Made by a program: the position numbers and the translations under genes
Source of the DNA: Bifidobacterium pluvialisilvae
GTDB taxonomy: Bacteria > Actinomycetota > Actinomycetes > Actinomycetales > Bifidobacteriaceae
Assembly: GCF_019331695.1 (NCBI RefSeq)
Contig: NZ_JAHBBI010000003.1
Coordinates: 124,001 to 188,000, forward strand
Length of the DNA stretch: 64,000 bases
Direction: 5' to 3'
Shown here: one piece after another, positions 42,104 to 60,285 of the stretch
How the letters are laid out: every line of letters begins with the position of its first letter
How positions within the stretch are numbered: position 1 is the first letter of the stretch
The notes under the pieces: model-generated
What the model saw: the letters and a program-made list of their open reading frames with translations, nothing else
What the model was told of the DNA's origin: nothing
Database searches by the model: none

Positions 42104-42188
42104 TGTGGACGGTCGGGTCGTCGTCTCCGATGTGGACGATGCCCTGGCCGTCCACATCGTCGTATCGGGGGTGGTCCGTCCGTCCACA
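42104..42188. promoter_or_regulatory. Cluster of four TGTGGACG(G/A) boxes upstream of comEA
   Basis: TGTGGACGG at 42104 and TGTGGACGA at 42131, then CCGTCCACA at 42148 and at 42180 in the opposite orientation. The inner two form GATGTGGAC-N12-GTCCACATC (perfect 9 bp), the outer two a 10-bp match. Read in the gene direction, the two proximal boxes start 32 bp apart and the last ends 49 nt before the comEA ATG. The same layout occurs upstream of yraN. Probable activator sites of competence genes. Confidence 0.7.
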
Positions 42189-42237
42189 TTCCCTCCGGCG
42201 GTTGCTCCGGCGACACGGGCCTGCCCATAGTGGAGTC

Positions 42238-43056
42238 ATGCCCGAGAACAAGACGAACGCCCCGATGCCGTACCTGCCGGTCACCATGGTGCCGCTGCCG
42301 CCAGATCTCGGCGTGGACCTTGCGGCATTCGACGACCGGACGGGGAACGGCCCGGCCATGACGGACCCGGAGACGCCGTCCCTGCCGAAGCGCCGCGGCA
42401 CCGGGGGGAGACGTGCACGGGACGGGTCGACAGCATCCCCGGGAGCGCCGCTGATGCTGTCGATGCTGTCGGGGGTGTCCCCGGACGACCATGGCGCCGA
42501 GGAGCTGCTGGATCGGCACACATCACGCAACGTCGCAAGGCTGACCCTCGACGGCCGGCACGCCGCCGTCATCATCCTGGTCCTAGTGTTCGTGCTCAGC
42601 ATCAGTCTTACCCTGCTGGCCCAGCAGGCCAGGCACGTCGACTCCATGACGGCGGATACGCTCCCCGAAGCATCCGCGTCGTCGTCGGCACGGTCCGTTT
42701 CGCCATCGGGCTCCACCACGTCATCGGGCTCCACCCCTTCATCGTCATCCGCGTCGTCGCAGTCCCCGACCCCGCAGACGCCGTCTCAGACCGCGCCACC
42801 GGCCCAGACGTCATCGTCGTCCGCATCGACGTCGTCCGCCGCGCCGGCGCCGTCGTCCGGCCTCATCGACCTCAACGCCGCCACGGCTGAGCAGCTGGAG
42901 ACCATCAACGGCGTCGGCCCGGTCACCGCACGCCGTATACTCGACCACCGTGCCCAGAACGGCCGGTTCTCCAGCGTCGACGACCTGCTCGACGTCCCCG
43001 GCATCGGCGCGAAGACCCTGGAGAAGATCAGACCATACGTGACGGTCGGCACATGA
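42238..43056 (+). CDS. comEA: ComEA-like DNA-binding competence protein
   Basis: Membrane-anchored receptor for incoming DNA in transformation. The 272-residue protein has about 105 N-terminal cytoplasmic residues, one membrane helix (VIILVLVFVLSISLTLLAQ), a Ser/Thr/Pro-rich linker of about 70 residues, and a C-terminal double helix-hairpin-helix: IDLNAATAEQLETINGVGPV and FSSVDDLLDVPGIGAKTLEK. A CATAGT -10 ends 6 nt before the ATG, so the message may be leaderless, although GGAG also lies there. It overlaps comEC by 4 bp. Four repeated boxes precede it. Confidence 0.9.
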   Translation: MPENKTNAPMPYLPVTMVPLPPDLGVDLAAFDDRTGNGPAMTDPETPSLPKRRGTGGRRARDGSTASPGAPLMLSMLSGVSPDDHGAEELLDRHTSRNVARLTLDGRHAAVIILVLVFVLSISLTLLAQQARHVDSMTADTLPEASASSSARSVSPSGSTTSSGSTPSSSSASSQSPTPQTPSQTAPPAQTSSSSASTSSAAPAPSSGLIDLNAATAEQLETINGVGPVTARRILDHRAQNGRFSSVDDLLDVPGIGAKTLEKIRPYVTVGT

Positions 43057-44798
43057 GCGGACGGAACATGCGTGCGCCCCGCGCCGAACGGGAGCGGGGA
43101 AGCGCCGACCGGAGGATGATGCCCGCCGCGCTGGCCGTATGGGCCACGCTGCTGGCCCGGCATGCCGTGGGGGAGCATTGGGACGTGGCCGTCATGACCG
43201 CCATGGGGGTTTCTCTGGCGGCCGGTGTGGCGGTCCTGCTGCTGACGCGGGGAGGACCGGACGCGAGACCTCGGAAGGCGGCCCCGCGCATCGGACCGCA
43301 ATGCCTATGGCATGCGGCGGTGCTGCTGGCGGCGGTAGGCTGTGCCACGGTCGCCGGGGGACTTTCGGACCTGGCGGAATCCCGCGACCCGCTCATCGGA
43401 CTCCTCGGCTCGGGCGAATCGGGGGTCGTGACCGTGACCGCGGTCGCCACGACGCCCGTCATGTCCTCCGAACGACGGGAGGCCGATTGCCAGATCGACA
43501 TGCGTGTGAGGACGGTATGGTCCCGCGATGTGGGTTCGCCCTCGAACGCGACCGTGCGGGCCTTCGCCGAGGACGACGCCTGCCGGTGGCGGCAAGGTGC
43601 CGCATACCGCGTATCGGGAACCCTCAAGGCCGCGCGATTCGGCTCCGCGACGGCATGGCTGGACGTCGACCGGGACGATGACGTCCGCGAGACGTCGCCG
43701 CCCCCGGGATGGCGGGCCATGGGAACGAGGATGCAGGAAGCGTTTTTCGCCCAGACCGACCGTCTCGGCGACCAGGGACGCGTCCTTGTGCCCGGCCTGA
43801 CGATCGGCGTGCTCGGACAGGACGTCCACCGGCAGGAGACCGAGGGCGCATCCCCGGTGGACGACACCTATGCGGGTGCGTTGGAGGAGGACTTCAAACG
43901 GTCGGGCATCATGCATCCCATGGCGGTATCCGGCAGCCACTTCGTCCTGGCCGCCGAACTCGTGCGACGTTGCTGCGCGCGACTGCTCGCGCCCCGCTGG
44001 TTCGCCGCCGTCGGCGTCATCGGCGCATACGCCGTGCTCGTCGCACTGGTGTATCCGTCCGATTCCGTGTTGCGGGCCGCGGCCATGGGCATGGTGGGTG
44101 TGGCCGGGCTATTCCTCGGACGGCGTTCCCAGGCGCTGTCGTCGCTGAACTGGACGGTGATCGCCATCCTGCTGATCCGGCCCGAGCTATCGGGAAGCTA
44201 CGGGTTCGCGCTGTCCTGCGCGGCGGTGTACGGCATCGTGCTGTTCGACGCCGCGGTCGCCGGATTCCTCGAGGGGCTGATGCCGACGACGCTGGCGAGG
44301 GCCGTCTCGGTGACGGTGTGCGCCCAGATTCCCACTCTGCCCATCCAGGTGATGATGAACCCGCAGGTGCCGTTGCTTGCGGTGCCGGCGAACGTGGTCA
44401 CGTCACCCGTGGTCGGCATGACGACGCTCGTCGGTCTTGCCGCGCTGCTTGTCTCCTGGGCGCTCCCCGGCCTTGGTCATGGCCTGGTCCTTCTGGCGTC
44501 CGTGGGCACGGCGGTCCTGGAACGATGCGCGACGCTGCTCGGCTCGATGCCGTCCGGCACGCTGGTATGGCCGGACGGTGTGGCCGGCGCCATCGCCATG
44601 ACGGCCGCGGAACTGGCCTGCGCGGCCGCCGTCGCGGCGACCATGCACGCCATGCGTATTCTGCGGCGGGACGATGCGGCTGATGCCGGAATCCCGGACG
44701 GCGCGGCCACCGGGACCCCGTACCGTCCCACGCCGATGTCGCGGTGGACGACATGGTGGCGCGAGACATGCGCCATGCTGTTCGATGTCCAGCATTGA
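43053..44798 (+). CDS. comEC: ComEC/Rec2-type DNA uptake channel (lacks the metallo-beta-lactamase domain)
   Basis: Polytopic channel that passes single-stranded DNA into the cell. The 581-residue product has an N-terminal membrane part, an outer soluble domain (about 120-240) and the competence domain with GIMHPMAVSGSHFVLAAELV (the usual H-L-x-A-I-S-G-x-H region), YPSDSVLRAAAMG and PQVPLLAVPANVVTSPVVG. It ends soon after the last helices, so the C-terminal metallo-beta-lactamase-like nuclease domain of long ComEC proteins is missing. Start ATG overlaps comEA. The following holA is 16 bp away. Confidence 0.88.
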   Translation: MSGRNMRAPRAERERGSADRRMMPAALAVWATLLARHAVGEHWDVAVMTAMGVSLAAGVAVLLLTRGGPDARPRKAAPRIGPQCLWHAAVLLAAVGCATVAGGLSDLAESRDPLIGLLGSGESGVVTVTAVATTPVMSSERREADCQIDMRVRTVWSRDVGSPSNATVRAFAEDDACRWRQGAAYRVSGTLKAARFGSATAWLDVDRDDDVRETSPPPGWRAMGTRMQEAFFAQTDRLGDQGRVLVPGLTIGVLGQDVHRQETEGASPVDDTYAGALEEDFKRSGIMHPMAVSGSHFVLAAELVRRCCARLLAPRWFAAVGVIGAYAVLVALVYPSDSVLRAAAMGMVGVAGLFLGRRSQALSSLNWTVIAILLIRPELSGSYGFALSCAAVYGIVLFDAAVAGFLEGLMPTTLARAVSVTVCAQIPTLPIQVMMNPQVPLLAVPANVVTSPVVGMTTLVGLAALLVSWALPGLGHGLVLLASVGTAVLERCATLLGSMPSGTLVWPDGVAGAIAMTAAELACAAAVAATMHAMRILRRDDAADAGIPDGAATGTPYRPTPMSRWTTWWRETCAMLFDVQH

Positions 44799-44814
44799 CG
44801 GGAGATTAGGGTCT

Positions 44815-45789
44815 ATGGCAGCATCAGCATCACACCGGAACCCCTCCATGCGCATCGTGTTCGGCGGCGACGGGTTCCTCAACGACCAGACCGTGAAGGA
44901 CCTGTGCCGCCAGGCGTGTGCTCGCCGTCCCGACGCGGAGTTTGTCGAGCTCGACGCCGCCTCATGCGACTCCTATGCCTTCGACGAGGCCGTCAGCCCG
45001 TCGCTGCTGTCCGACGCCGCCGTGGTGAGGGTGTCCAACCTGCAGGGCGCCGACGACAAGCTTGGGGACGCCATGGTCGACTATCTGAAGCACGCCGGCG
45101 ACGATGGCGGAACCGTGGTGATATGCCAGCACGAGGGCGGCATGAAAGGCAGACGCCTCATCGATGTGCTCAAACGTGCGGGTGCCGACATGGTGCAGGT
45201 GCCCGACCTGAAGAAGGCCGACGCCAGAATCAACTACGTCTACCAATGCTTCGAGCGGCGGGGCAGACGCGTGGACCCCGTCGCGGCGCAGCAGCTGGTG
45301 AACGTGCTCGGCGGCAGGACCGGTGAGCTCGCCGCCATGTGCGCGCAGCTGTGCTTCGATTTCGACGACGACCCCATCGGCGTCGACAGGGTGAACCAAT
45401 ATCTCACCGCAAGCCCCCAGGTCACCGGCTTCGTCGTCGCCGACAAGGCCGTGGAGGGGCGCACCGCGGAGGCCATCGTCGCCATGCGCTCCGCCATCGC
45501 CCAAGGCACCGACCCCATAGCGCTGATCGGGGCGCTCGCCATGAAGCTGCGCACCATGGCCAAGGCGTCCGCCGTGCGTGTCGGCACGATCAGCCAGTCG
45601 GAGGCGAACATCAACCCGTGGGTGCTGAAGAACGCGGGGCGCCAGCTGTCCGGATGGTCCTCCGACGGCATGCGGCGCTGCATCGGCATGCTCGCGTGGG
45701 CGGACGAGCAGAGCAAGACCAACGGCGGCGACCCGGTCTATGCTTTGGAACGGACCATCGAGGCCATCGGGGCGAAAGGAAGGAACTGA
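44815..45789 (+). CDS. holA: DNA polymerase III delta subunit
   Basis: Clamp-loader subunit that opens the sliding clamp. The 324-residue product has the HolA pattern: MRIVFGGDGFLNDQTVKDL at the start, DAAVVRVSNLQ, VVICQHEGGMKGRRLIDVLK, LVNVLGGRTGELAAMCAQL and the C-terminal collar region WVLKNAGRQLSGWS. The order comEA-comEC-holA is common in Gram-positive bacteria. GGGAG lies 10 nt before the ATG. It leads on into tsaE with no gap, so replication, competence and tRNA-modification genes share a transcript. Confidence 0.92.
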   Translation: MAASASHRNPSMRIVFGGDGFLNDQTVKDLCRQACARRPDAEFVELDAASCDSYAFDEAVSPSLLSDAAVVRVSNLQGADDKLGDAMVDYLKHAGDDGGTVVICQHEGGMKGRRLIDVLKRAGADMVQVPDLKKADARINYVYQCFERRGRRVDPVAAQQLVNVLGGRTGELAAMCAQLCFDFDDDPIGVDRVNQYLTASPQVTGFVVADKAVEGRTAEAIVAMRSAIAQGTDPIALIGALAMKLRTMAKASAVRVGTISQSEANINPWVLKNAGRQLSGWSSDGMRRCIGMLAWADEQSKTNGGDPVYALERTIEAIGAKGRN

Positions 45790-56692: not shown

Positions 56693-58075
56693 CTACATGG
56701 CCCCGGACCGTCCGCCACGGGTCCGCGGAACCAGCGAGATGACGCCGTCGGCCCCGATGACGATGATGTCCCTGGCTTCCAGGGCGGCGAGCGTCAGCTG
56801 CAGGGTGGCCGCGTCGCAGGGCGGCGACGTCCCGTTCGTGGACAGATGGTCGAGGATCGCGTCGGGGGTCGCCGCCACATGCCGCCGCCCGCAGCTTCGG
56901 ATGGCGCTCGTCACCGCCCGCTGCAGCGGATCGGCCGGGGCGTCGGTTCTCGTGGGGTCCGCGCCGTCGTCGCGTTCGTTTCCGCCGTCGTCCCCGACGG
57001 CGTCGTGGGGCGCATGGCAGATATCGGAGACATCGGTCGCGGAGGCCAGCAATACGGCCTTGCCCTCATGCACCAGTCTGTTGCATCCGGTGTTGTAGGG
57101 CTCATCGATGTCCCCGGGGGCGGCGTAGAGCTCGCGGCTCATCTCCGCGGCCCAGGTGGCGGTGTTCAACGCGCCCGAACGGTGCCTCGCCTGTGCGACG
57201 ACCACGACCCTGCCCAACGCCGCGATGATCCGGTTGCGTAGCAGGAACCTCCGTGCCTCGGGTATGGTCCCCGGAGGCATCTCGCTGATCAGCGCGCCCC
57301 GCCGGTCGGTCATGGCCTCGAACAGGGGGAGGTTGCGGGAGGGGCCGATATGGTCGAGGCCTCCCGCGAACACCGCGACGGTGCGTCCCGCCGGGTTCGG
57401 GCCATCCTCGATGCCGGACCGCTCGTCCCATGCGGCGATGGCTCCCCAATGCGCCGCGGCGTCGGCGCCCATCGCGCCTCCCGACACCACAAGATGACCT
57501 GCGCGCGCCGCATGCAGCCCGATGCCCCTCGCCACGAACCGGCCGTAGTCGTTGGCCTCACGCGATCCCACCACGGCGACCGGGGCGTCGCAGCTGGTCA
57601 GAGCGGCCGGGTCGCCCACGCCCCAGAGGCACAGCGGGGGCGCCCAGTCCGAACGTATGGACAGGTCGGCGAGCTGGGTCGGCCAGTACGGCGAATCCGG
57701 GCCGATGATCCACTGGCGTTCGTCGTGCACGAACCACGCGGTCAGGCCCTCGCGAGATCGTGCGGGCAGCCGGCCCAGTCTTCCGCGCCATCGGTCCAGC
57801 GCCGTATGGAACCCCTCCACGGCCCTGGCGTCGGCCCTGCGGCCCCATCTGGCCAGCCCGGTGACGAACACGCGGTCGAGCTCGCGCGCCCCGCCCGGTC
57901 CGTCGTATCCGAGCCAGTCCGGCCTCTGGTGGGTCGTCTCCTCGCAGAGGAGGGCCAGAAGCCGTCTGGGCGATTCGGCGCCTTTCAGCGCAGCGAACAT
58001 GAGGGCGTCGGGCCCATCCCCGCAGTGGGTGAGCGCCGCGCGGCAGAGCGTATCCGTTTCCGGTGTCGTCGTCAT
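56693..58075 (-). CDS. dprA: DNA-processing protein DprA
   Basis: Binds incoming single-stranded DNA and loads RecA during transformation. The 460-residue product has a helical N-terminal part (about 1-130), then the Rossmann core: VAVVGSREANDYGRF, VVSGGAMGADAAAHWGAIAA, GGLDHIGPSRNLPLFEAM, GALISEMPPGTIPEARRFLLRNRIIA, and a C-terminal winged-helix-like end. GGAGG stands 4 nt before the ATG. Last gene of yraN-comM-dprA; 23 bp after comM. The frame runs further upstream through comM, but without support. Confidence 0.93.
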   Translation of the reverse strand: MTTTPETDTLCRAALTHCGDGPDALMFAALKGAESPRRLLALLCEETTHQRPDWLGYDGPGGARELDRVFVTGLARWGRRADARAVEGFHTALDRWRGRLGRLPARSREGLTAWFVHDERQWIIGPDSPYWPTQLADLSIRSDWAPPLCLWGVGDPAALTSCDAPVAVVGSREANDYGRFVARGIGLHAARAGHLVVSGGAMGADAAAHWGAIAAWDERSGIEDGPNPAGRTVAVFAGGLDHIGPSRNLPLFEAMTDRRGALISEMPPGTIPEARRFLLRNRIIAALGRVVVVAQARHRSGALNTATWAAEMSRELYAAPGDIDEPYNTGCNRLVHEGKAVLLASATDVSDICHAPHDAVGDDGGNERDDGADPTRTDAPADPLQRAVTSAIRSCGRRHVAATPDAILDHLSTNGTSPPCDAATLQLTLAALEARDIIVIGADGVISLVPRTRGGRSGAM

Positions 58076-58098
58076 CGTTCCTCCGTTCCCGTTCTCTC

Positions 58099-59631
58099 CT
58101 ACTTCAGTCTTGTCCGCAGTGCTATGCCGGCGGCGACGTCGCCCGAATCGGGACTGGTGCGTCCCGACACGTCCGCGAGCGTCCATGCCAGCCGCAGCGC
58201 ACGGTCGGCGCCACGCAGGCTGAGCTTCTGCGTCTCCAGCGCGTCGGCCACCAGCGACATGGCCTTTGCCGACGTGTTCCGACGCAGCCAGTCGCCGCTC
58301 GCCTTGGCGTTGCATGGCCATCCCTGCATCCGGTACCGTTCGGTGGCGGCGGCGCGCGCCTCGATGACGCGTCGCCGTATGACCTCGCTGGATTCGCCTG
58401 GTCCGCGTTCGCCGGCGACGAGGTTGGCCACCGGCGGCACCGTCACCTGGATGTCGATGCGGTCGAGGATCGGCCCGGAGAGGCGGTTCCAGTAGCGGGT
58501 GCGGTCCTTGACGCTGCAGACGCACCGCTCTCCCGAGCCCCATCCGAACCCGCACGGGCAGGGGTTCGCCGCCATGACGAGCTGGAACCGCGCCGGATAA
58601 TGCGTGGTGCCCTTGGAACGTGACAGCGAGACGAAGCCGGTCTCCAAAGGCTCGCGGATGGTCTGCAGCACGCGTGGCGGGAACTCGGGCGCCTCGTCCA
58701 TGAACAGCACGCCGTTATGCGCCCGCGTTATGGCCCCAGGCCGGGCGAATCCCGAGCCTCCGCCCACCAACGCCGGCACGCTGGACGTGTGGTGGGGCGC
58801 CTCGTACGGCGGCACGTCCGTGATGCCGTACGAGGGCAGGGTGCCGCACAGCGAACGGATGGAGGCCACCTCGAGCTGCTGGCGTTCGTTCATCGGCGGC
58901 ATGATGGTGGGCAGACGCGAGGCCAGCATCGTCTTGCCCGCGCCGGGCGGTCCCACCATGATGACGTTGTGGCCGCCCGCGGCCGCGACCTCCAACGCCC
59001 ATTTGACATGGTCCTGGCCGACCACCTGGTTCATGTCCGACGCGTCGCGTCCCCCGTCCGCATCGATGCCGCTTCCGGCGTCCGCGCCGATGTCGACGTC
59101 CTCGGGAAGGCGGTACCGCGTGCTGCCTCCCATATGTTCGATGAGCTCGCCGAGATGCCGCACCGGAACGACGTCGATGTCGGGAACCAGTCCCGCCTCG
59201 TCGAGGTTGCCGTGGGGGATGAACGCCCGCGTGATGCCGCGGTTGCGCGCGTGGATCAGTATCGGCAGCAGTCCGGTTATGGGCAGCACGCAGCCGTCGA
59301 GCCGCAGCTCGCCCATGACGAGGGTCTGCTCGAAGGCGTCATGGGGTATGACACCGCCGGCGCACAGCACGCTGGCGGCGACCGCCAGGTCGTGGCTCGC
59401 CCCGCTTTTGGGCAGTGACGCGGGGGAGAGGTTCACCGTCACGCGCGTCTGCGGCCACGGGAACCCGGCCGCCGAGCACGCCGACTTCACCCGTTCGCGG
59501 GCTTCGGACAGCGAGGTGTCGGGCAGGCCGATGATGGAGAAGTACGGCAGTCCGGGCGAGATGTACGCCTGCATCGTGATGGTGAAGGCCTTGAGCCCTA
59601 CAAGGCCCACCGAAAGCGCGGTCCCGATCAT
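58099..59631 (-). CDS. comM: ComM / Mg-chelatase-like AAA+ helicase
   Basis: Hexameric AAA+ protein that promotes branch migration of transformed DNA. The 510-residue product has the N-terminal Lon-like domain (GLVGLKAFTITMQAYISPGL, VNLSPASLPKSGASHDLAVAAS), the QVVGQDHVKWALEVAAAGGHN region, Walker A GPPGAGKTMLASRLP near residue 235, Walker B GVLFMDEAPEFP, and the zinc-type NPCPCGFGWGSGERCVC. ATG 59631 overlaps the yraN stop (TGATG). The frame goes on upstream but inside yraN. Confidence 0.95.
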   Translation of the reverse strand: MIGTALSVGLVGLKAFTITMQAYISPGLPYFSIIGLPDTSLSEARERVKSACSAAGFPWPQTRVTVNLSPASLPKSGASHDLAVAASVLCAGGVIPHDAFEQTLVMGELRLDGCVLPITGLLPILIHARNRGITRAFIPHGNLDEAGLVPDIDVVPVRHLGELIEHMGGSTRYRLPEDVDIGADAGSGIDADGGRDASDMNQVVGQDHVKWALEVAAAGGHNVIMVGPPGAGKTMLASRLPTIMPPMNERQQLEVASIRSLCGTLPSYGITDVPPYEAPHHTSSVPALVGGGSGFARPGAITRAHNGVLFMDEAPEFPPRVLQTIREPLETGFVSLSRSKGTTHYPARFQLVMAANPCPCGFGWGSGERCVCSVKDRTRYWNRLSGPILDRIDIQVTVPPVANLVAGERGPGESSEVIRRRVIEARAAATERYRMQGWPCNAKASGDWLRRNTSAKAMSLVADALETQKLSLRGADRALRLAWTLADVSGRTSPDSGDVAAGIALRTRLK

Positions 59632-60137
59632 CAGAACGCCCCCGGTATGTGCCTGATCTGCGGTGCCCGGCGTCCTCCGAGCACGCTGATGGCCAGGACG
59701 TCGAAACGGGTGCCGCTGCGGCGTATGGCATCGCCGTGCCGTTGGATCCATTCCATCCCGGCGTGCCGCAGTGCCTTGCGCTTGTGCTCGGTCACGGCGT
59801 CCTGCGGGGGGCCGAACATGGCGCTGCGCCGCGTCTTCACCTCGACGAATGTGAGTTGGTCGGCGCGGTTCAGCGCGATCACGTCGAGTTCGCCGTGCCG
59901 CGAGCGCCAGTTGCGGTCGAGGATGGTCCAACCCCGCTCCCGCAGCCAGAGTTCGGCATAGTCCTCGCCGAGGCGGCCGAGCTGCCGTGGCGTCAGCCCG
60001 GGCTGATGGAGCCGCCGGGTCAGCTGGTCGATCTGCTGTCGGACCCGTGCCGCAGAGGGCTCCCCGGCCATGGTGGCATGATGGTCCGCGGTCCGTCCGG
60101 CCTGCATGGTGTCTGTCATGATGTCTGTGTCTGTCAT
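59631..60137 (-). CDS. YraN family (UPF0102) nuclease-like protein
   Basis: 168 residues with a restriction-endonuclease-like core: GRLGEDYAELWLRERGWTIL, then GELDVIALNRADQLTFVEVK with the E-x-D / E-x-K metal residues, and AVTEHKRKALRHAGMEWI. The first 45 residues are variable. First gene of the yraN-comM-dprA operon, so it is likely a DNA-processing factor in transformation or repair. Five GTGGACGG-type boxes lie upstream; the nearest is 49 nt before the ATG. Confidence 0.9.
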   Translation of the reverse strand: MTDTDIMTDTMQAGRTADHHATMAGEPSAARVRQQIDQLTRRLHQPGLTPRQLGRLGEDYAELWLRERGWTILDRNWRSRHGELDVIALNRADQLTFVEVKTRRSAMFGPPQDAVTEHKRKALRHAGMEWIQRHGDAIRRSGTRFDVLAISVLGGRRAPQIRHIPGAF

Positions 60138-60186
60138 GGTCCCACTTCAGCATGGAACGGCCGCCGGCGGGCGCCCGCACCGGACA

Positions 60187-60285
60187 AGTGGACGGATGGA
60201 CCACCCCCGGACGCCGAATGTGGACGATTCCCGGCCTCCGCCGGCCATGTGGACGGATTCGGGCGCCGTCCACATGCCGTCCACG
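60187..60285. promoter_or_regulatory. Cluster of five GTGGACG(G/A) boxes upstream of yraN
   Basis: AGTGGACGG (60187), TGTGGACGA (60219) and TGTGGACGG (60248) on the plus strand; CCGTCCACA (60266) and CCGTCCACG (60277) on the other orientation. CATGTGGACGG-N9-CCGTCCACATG (60246-60276) is a perfect 11-bp inverted repeat. Relative to yraN, the first two boxes have the orientation, 32-bp spacing and 49-nt distance seen for comEA. The divergent metY starts 213 bp to the right. Confidence 0.7.

Follow-up and report, generated by a model that had tools for sequence, protein, structure and literature searches.

The DNA upstream of comEA and yraN in Bifidobacterium pluvialisilvae carries a real, conserved regulatory element that, judged from its sequence and distribution, belongs to a Bifidobacteriaceae regulon centred on DNA uptake and wider than that originally predicted. 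The element is recognised by its box, the fixed distance of this box to the −10 and the start codon, its conservation, its enrichment, and the co-variation of the box between unlinked operons. It is quite probably the site of one transcription factor, most likely an activator, that would define a family-wide regulon. The predicted members belong to DNA uptake (comEA-comEC, with comF in at least one genome), DNA processing (yraN-comM-dprA and a second ssb), the Tad pilus (tadZ, cpaB-like), and type VII-like secretion (WXG100, EccC-like ATPase), together with orphan AbiEi-like or DUF559-like genes.

The element at the com operons and in the own genome

The window analysed here is a stretch of 64,000 nt that includes two com operons. 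Pfam matches uphold the names ComEA, ComEC, YraN, ComM, and DprA, which had been assigned from the sequence alone. On the + strand are comEA (42238..43056; HHH_3, PF12836, 1.2e-21) and comEC (43053..44798; PF03772, 1.1e-36), with a holA-like gene downstream of comEC (44674..45789, putative start; PF21694, 1.5e-9). On the − strand are yraN (UPF0102; 59631..60137; PF02021, 4.2e-26), comM (58099..59634; Mg_chelatase, PF01078, 8.5e-85), which was the query for the family homology search, and the open frame of dprA (56693..58555; DNA_processg_A, PF02481, 1e-55), the true start of which is inside the frame.

Pairs of CCGTCCAC-type boxes, spaced by 32 bp and 49 nt from the ATG, had been described at comEA and yraN, and this description is exact to the base. 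Upstream of comEA (ATG 42238, + strand), CCGTCCACA starts at 42148 and at 42180, a spacing of 32 bp; the near box (42180..42188) has its last base 49 nt 5′ of the ATG, and the far box (42148..42156) is variable in other members. Upstream of yraN (ATG 60137, − strand), the far box TCGTCCACA runs from 60227 (60219..60227) and the near box CCGTCCACT from 60195 (60187..60195), also 32 bp apart, with the nearer box ending at 60187, 49 nt 5′ of the ATG. This yraN start codon is one choice among several in-frame starts; in Bifidobacterium catulorum the yraN ATG is likewise exactly 50 nt past CCAC.

All nine boxes that had been counted are present, as nine CGTCCAC cores across the two upstream regions. 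In the window as a whole, YCGTCCAC occurs 25 times where 10.3 are expected, and none of 100 shuffles reaches 25. There are ten [CT]CGTCCAC[AT] sites, eight of them within the comEA and yraN upstream regions, where 40 first-order Markov simulations average 3.35. Two same-strand pairs in the window have a spacing of exactly 32 bp, a configuration that none of these simulations produced. The box pattern also picks out extra CGTCCAC boxes at both com promoters (42104-42139 and 60248-60284), mostly in the opposite orientation. At comEA these are at 42104..42112 and 42131..42139 (both − strand, opposite to the gene), and at yraN there is one at 60248..60256 (− strand) and two in the opposite orientation, at 60266 and 60277 (60266..60284, + strand). 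Such boxes are no general feature of the remaining own-genome copies of the element and are possibly additional or looping sites.

The comEA and yraN promoters have more in common than the boxes, namely GGGGGTGGTCCRTCCGTCCAC. When the own genome (2,655,377 bases, 21 contigs) was scanned with the 18-mer GGTGGTCCNTCCGTCCAC, allowing up to 3 mismatches, 28 places were found, against 7 for the reversed pattern. The best of these gave an extended 25-bp consensus, CGAGGGTGGTCCRTYCGTCMACATT, to which 11 of the 28 places score 21-25 of 25 and the remaining 17 score 18 or less. Searched for with up to 3 mismatches, the 25-mer has 10 matches in the own genome and its reversed control has none. Invariant across the 11 copies are GGG, TGG, CC, T, CG, and AC with the T that follows it. 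The core element of comEA, CGGGGGTGGTCCGTCCGTCCACATT (42166..42190, + strand; G000:C15:166166-166190), has 1 mismatch to the consensus, and that of yraN-comM-dprA, CGGGGGTGGTCCATCCGTCCACTTG (60185..60209, − strand; G000:C15:184185-184209), has 3.

In the 11 own-genome promoters the box is about 38 nt 5′ of a TANNNT-like −10, outside the core promoter, and no conserved column is seen among them in the stretch where a −35 would be expected. The final T of the −10 hexamer is at the same offset, +44 past CCAC, in 10 of the 11 copies, the exception (L007) being a shift of 1 base. The predicted hexamer of comEA is CATAGT (42226..42231, + strand); for yraN, the promoter alignment gives a weak TGAAGT (60144..60149, − strand). 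This pattern fits the −10 elements of Bifidobacterium breve, in which T1, A2, and T6 are conserved (PMC5746004). The start codon is 49-51 nt past CCAC in nine of the 11 copies, at 50 in seven of these; the exceptions, ssb and the WXG100 gene of L006, have leaders. Transcripts with a start codon at this distance, including that of comEA, are probably leaderless.

The conserved unit goes beyond the box pair: it is the 25-bp CGAGGGTGGTCCRTYCGTCMACATT with a TANNNT-like −10 at a fixed offset. Conservation covers the near box, the −10, and the GGGTGGTCC block, but the box pair that had been proposed as the promoter is not defining: a TCCMCA far box is exactly 32 bp upstream in only seven of the 11 copies (L001, L002, L003, L005, L006, L011, and L023). 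It is at 31 bp in another (L018), and there is no far box in the same orientation in L004, L007, and L008.

Behind the 11 copies are comEA-comEC (L002), yraN-comM-dprA (L003), the gene for a second SSB (L023; PF00436, 3.5e-20), and that for a TadZ/CpaE-type protein (L008; NCBIfam Ssd, 7.5e-25, under the curated cut-off of the model). It had been guessed that tad and ssb genes would have upstream matches, and tadZ and the second ssb are such genes in the own genome. Two copies precede genes for WXG100 proteins (L006, 1.2e-18; L005, 2.8e-4, under Pfam's cut-off), three precede orphan genes for proteins matching DUF559 above Pfam's cut-off (L001, L004, and L007), and two precede related orphans without a Pfam match (L011 and L018). 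The WXG100 gene beside groEL has the element and the −10 with a longer leader, both in the own genome (L006/L045), where there are 117 nt from CCAC to the ATG, and in relatives (L041 and L044). An OmpR-type regulator gene is located approximately 1.3-1.4 kb from this groEL-side element in G000, G002, and G005.

The orphan AbiEi-like 'MRTH' and DUF559/MTES_1575-like proteins are encoded by single genes, each with its own promoter copy, in the own genome (L001, L004, L007, L011, and L018) and in relatives (L229, L233, L235, L236, L237, L241, L243, and L247). The MRTH-type proteins tested matched no Pfam or NCBIfam family, had weak AbiEi matches in PADLOC (best 1.1e-5), and, for the one compared with solved structures, gave no match. 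The orphan MRTH/DUF559-like proteins may process DNA or act as effectors in the competent state.

Conservation and wider membership in the Bifidobacteriaceae

Within 3 mismatches, the own-clade form of the 25-mer is present in five of the nine genomes of the GTDB genus and in none of the 180 other family genomes. It is found in only 5 of the 189 family genomes because the box differs between clades, as the upstream regions show. The exact form occurs in 18 stretches of the genome_contigs collection, 15 of which are from B. catulorum, Bifidobacterium saimiriisciurei, and Bifidobacterium primatium; for 13 of the 16 elements in the Bifidobacterium stretches the start codon is 50-51 nt past CCAC. 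The remaining three stretches, two from Nocardioides and one from Spirochaetaceae, have no fitting start 49-51 nt downstream except a 59-aa TTG frame in the Spirochaetaceae record, and these matches look like chance. Across the order, the exact pattern was found in 3 of 119 genomes and in none of the 110 outside the family, a result with little information on breadth outside the family, the same pattern having also missed six of nine family members.

Homology searches found comEA in 33 of the 35 family genomes tested, and ssb, comM, and tadZ in all of the 20 genomes searched for each. Upstream of comEA in many Bifidobacteriaceae, TTCGACCACA and close variants are at the same place, and the same clade-specific box placement is seen upstream of ssb, yraN-comM, and tadZ. 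Among loci gathered solely through homology, YYYGACCACA with an ATG or GTG 49-51 nt downstream is present at 15 of 30 comEA, 10 of 20 comM, and 14 of 20 tadZ loci, against none of 75 control loci (dnaA 10, LytTR 25, OmpR 30, other ssb 10); the box and the 49-51 window were set after many of the same loci were known, so that the comparison is not blind, and 3-nt distance bins in it average 2.84 (comEA), 1.6 (comM), and 2.44 (tadZ) hits. None of the 20 ssb loci has this arrangement, and the ssb genes examined have a leader. A looser box ending in CACA or AACA, a pattern without control loci and with frequent hits at other distances, notably at comEA loci, is found at 26 of 30 comEA, 18 of 20 comM, and 20 of 20 tadZ loci. 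By script, no good box was found at comM in G003, G013, G082, G045, G040, G065, G022, and G096, or at tadZ in G065, G045, G003, and G013; most comM and tadZ loci without a scripted box have a different box instead, often TATCCACA- or AACCACA-like.

Conservation at comEA and yraN orthologues, by which the original prediction was to be judged, is therefore found, in a clade-specific form. It was also to be judged by whether such pairs are equally common at unrelated genes, and they are not, the element being concentrated at com, tad, and ssb relative to control loci.

Two unusual arrangements were seen in relatives. In G008, two identical copies of a CGAGGAGGGTCCATTCGACCACATT element are near contig ends (L038 and L043), one of them upstream of a gene for a peptidase-like protein, as judged by eye, which suggests a repeated or assembly-split locus. 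In B. saimiriisciurei (L063, 2461-2521), two opposed elements approximately 40 bp apart are upstream of a WXG100-like gene, and the upstream sequence of L050 and L051 in relatives has the same opposed arrangement.

In each of 12 genomes, the pattern CGACCACAN{47,51}ATG outnumbers its reversed control, with 238 against 46 matches in sum; many of the matches are intragenic. Forty places were fetched from among the matches listed, mostly by eye for a plausible −10, and their yield is therefore biased; the pattern was confirmed at 39 of the 40, and 25 of these 40 places fall in recognisable groups. The guess that comFC would be among the members is supported in one relative, G134, where comF is behind the box (L227; TIGR00201, 2.8e-11, under the cut-off). 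The other groups are four EccC-like ATPases (among them L252, with 7.8e-53 to EssC, under the cut-off), three SAF/CpaB-like proteins (L232 among them), seven WXG100-like, six MRTH-type, and two DUF559-like proteins, one M23 peptidase, and one GIY-YIG protein. Family models were run for the proteins of L226, L227, L229, L230, L232, L235, L236, L237, L240, L243, L246, L247, L250, and L252; several of the matches of these 14 proteins are below curated cut-offs or absent, and other members were placed by eye from similarity. The remaining 15 of the 40 places include a valyl-tRNA synthetase-like gene, a Sir2-like gene, and frames that look like chance. The valyl-tRNA synthetase-like and the Sir2-like gene, both in G134 (L224 and L231) and identified by eye, have a perfect TTCGACCACA box with the ATG approximately 50 nt downstream; because they carry the box, some members are outside the competence theme.

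A competence regulon is expected to have one site at several unlinked DNA-uptake or DNA-processing operons, and to keep that site at the orthologous operons of related species. The element is at comEA-EC, yraN-comM-dprA, ssb, and tadZ, and at comF in G134, and it is kept at the orthologous operons of related species. In the 'dedicated transformation regulon' first envisaged, the shared, position-fixed element at unlinked com operons stands, but the description is too narrow, as WXG100 genes, EccC-like ATPases, and orphans share the promoter.

The predicted factor and alternative explanations

Within a genome, the box takes a similar form at operons that are unlinked. For example, TAGAACCACA is found at both comEA and tadZ in G045 and G065, TTTAACCACA at yraN and tadZ in G127, and TCCGACCACA at comEA, yraN, and tadZ in G055. 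In 16 of the 20 genomes, leaving out G022, G096, G127, and G138, for which the three operons did not all give a clear call, boxes compared across operons differ on average at 1.29 of 10 positions when they come from one genome and at 2.26 when they come from two; the boxes were typed by hand, with one of two candidates picked at G003 tadZ. None of 20000 permutations was as low as the observed value, a figure that is a guide only, since relatedness among the genomes keeps the permutations from being independent. A joint drift of unlinked operons is to be expected if one trans-acting protein serves them all. These findings speak for a shared DNA-binding factor, most likely an activator, that would control type VII-like secretion, the Tad pilus, and both the uptake and the processing of DNA. 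It would bind between about −75 and −50 relative to the start site, 5′ of the unconserved −35 region, and would recruit the ordinary sigma factor, with many of the mRNAs predicted to be leaderless. Small BldC-like binders, which bind head-to-tail, would fit direct repeats whole turns apart.

It is extremely improbable that the boxes have no regulatory role and arose as repeats by chance or as a DNA-uptake-like word. YCGTCCAC is indeed over-represented in the window, but chance would not place a box 49-51 nt from the start at three orthologous genes and at none of 75 control loci, nor make it co-vary between operons. A fairly unlikely reading is that a repressor binds the site as its operator and silences these genes. 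Fixed distance and shared motif are silent on the sign of regulation, and both com promoters in the window have extra boxes in the opposite orientation; however, in the 11 promoters the box is clear of the core promoter, about 38 nt 5′ of the −10, and no column is conserved in the −35 stretch. A box upstream of a core promoter that has no conserved −35 is the usual layout of activator-dependent promoters. The very strict spacing of the box to the −10 and the start codon might be thought to point to the upstream element of a promoter read by a dedicated sigma factor, comparable to streptococcal sigma-X. This is very unlikely, as some 38 nt from box to −10 is far beyond a −35/−10 spacer and the −10 resembles the TATAAT-type −10 of B. 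breve promoters (PMC5746004). A promoter of the sigma-X (CIN box) type was rejected as well, the box being not in place of the −10 or −35 but about 38 nt upstream of a TANNNT-like −10.

That the factor is DnaA itself, the boxes being DnaA boxes and the com, tad, and secretion genes following replication status, is quite unlikely. Of the 11 own-genome copies, three have a far box that matches TTATCCACA perfectly (32 bp upstream in L011 and L023, 31 bp in L018), two have one that is a single mismatch away (L001 and L006), and L008 has a perfect but inverted one. In G040 and G022, TTATCCACA is also contained in the near box of yraN, and the near boxes of ssb are of the TATCCACATT type in G022, G040, G082, G065, and G045. 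Against this, oriC keeps TTATCCACA-type DnaA boxes in 10 of 10 genomes examined, G000 and G002 included, whereas the near box reads CCGTCMACAT in the own clade and resembles TTCGACCACA in many others, with TAACA and CAACA variants, and each of these ten genomes has one DnaA C-terminal domain and so no divergent paralogue. The near box as a simple DnaA box was judged unlikely because the oriC boxes differ, despite a fit at yraN in G040 and G022 and a near fit at some ssb genes. In a broader form, also unlikely, the factor would read DnaA-like boxes, either as DnaA or as a partner protein, and would tie competence, the Tad pilus, and type VII-like secretion to the replication state; the partner would act with DnaA at a DnaA box approximately three helical turns upstream of the clade-specific box. 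If this DnaA link were true, the orphan nuclease-like genes would be competence-state effectors or DNA-processing enzymes.

Binding by an OmpR/PhoB-type response regulator such as MtrA, hinted at by 10-11-bp direct repeats such as CCACATTCGACCACATT, is likewise doubtful. Tandem CACATT repeats 10-11 bp apart are present in several genomes and OmpR-type regulators in nine of nine genomes searched, but the recognition helices are identical in the four OmpR-type groups that were read on both sides of the box change, a subset of the regulators, with a further group read in G000, G002, and G005. LytTR/ComE-type competence regulators bind direct repeats a few turns upstream of the promoter, to which the direct repeats seen here are alike. 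A LytTR regulator is present in 14 of 24 genomes, but LytTR was rejected as the general factor, the domain not being found in six Bifidobacteriaceae genomes (G000, G002, G006, G065, G134, and G164) that all have com genes and the box.

Comparison with known competence systems and significance

Two known regulons are among the closest parallels to the common activator favoured here. In the CRP-S/Sxy regulon of Haemophilus and Vibrio, one activator site is found before unlinked pilus, comF, comM, dprA, and ssb genes, CRP-S being a palindromic CRP site. The likeness is the single site at unlinked genes of these kinds; the difference is that the Bifidobacteriaceae box is TTCGACCACA or CCGTCMACATT, that starts are probably leaderless, and that there are type VII-like members. 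In Streptococcus pneumoniae, the sigma-X late competence regulon puts ssb, dprA, comEA-EC, comF, and pilus genes under one switch, with sigma-X reading a −10-like box. Gene content is alike, but here the box is about 38 nt upstream of an ordinary −10.

Among Actinobacteria, transformation of Micrococcus luteus needs ComEA/ComEC and Tad/Flp pilus genes (PMC4322843, PMC8467076), demonstrating that Tad pili can serve DNA uptake in this group (PMC4322843). In contrast to the present case, these two papers, in the parts considered here, describe neither a promoter element nor a regulator that is shared; control of the com genes was still being sought by mutagenesis, with regulation to be unravelled (PMC8467076, in which the word ssb is absent). 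Induction of the putative regulon might lead to competent cells, with the Tad pilus as the uptake pilus as in M. luteus.

Published expression data touch individual members. Expression of tad genes, that of TadZ included, is lower in a Bifidobacterium bifidum luxS mutant (PMC12436685), tad genes rise with a megaplasmid in B. breve (PMC10832533), and one WXG100 gene of Bifidobacterium longum is up 31-fold from lag to stationary phase (PMC9415070). Joint movement of the whole gene set is not reported in the main-text sections of these three papers that were considered, and the words competence and pilus are absent from the main text of PMC9415070. In Gardnerella, putative competence and tad genes are known (PMC7324480). 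Among the matches listed in literature searches, there was no competence regulator, com regulon, or report of this motif in bifidobacteria, and those to the motif strings concern unrelated subjects by title and abstract.

The element is a concrete bait for a competence regulator and predicts co-regulated genes in the Bifidobacteriaceae. It also ties the Tad pilus, a known colonisation factor, to DNA uptake. If the factor were found, its induction might open strains that are difficult to engineer to natural transformation, and one way in which gut commensals exchange genes would be explained.
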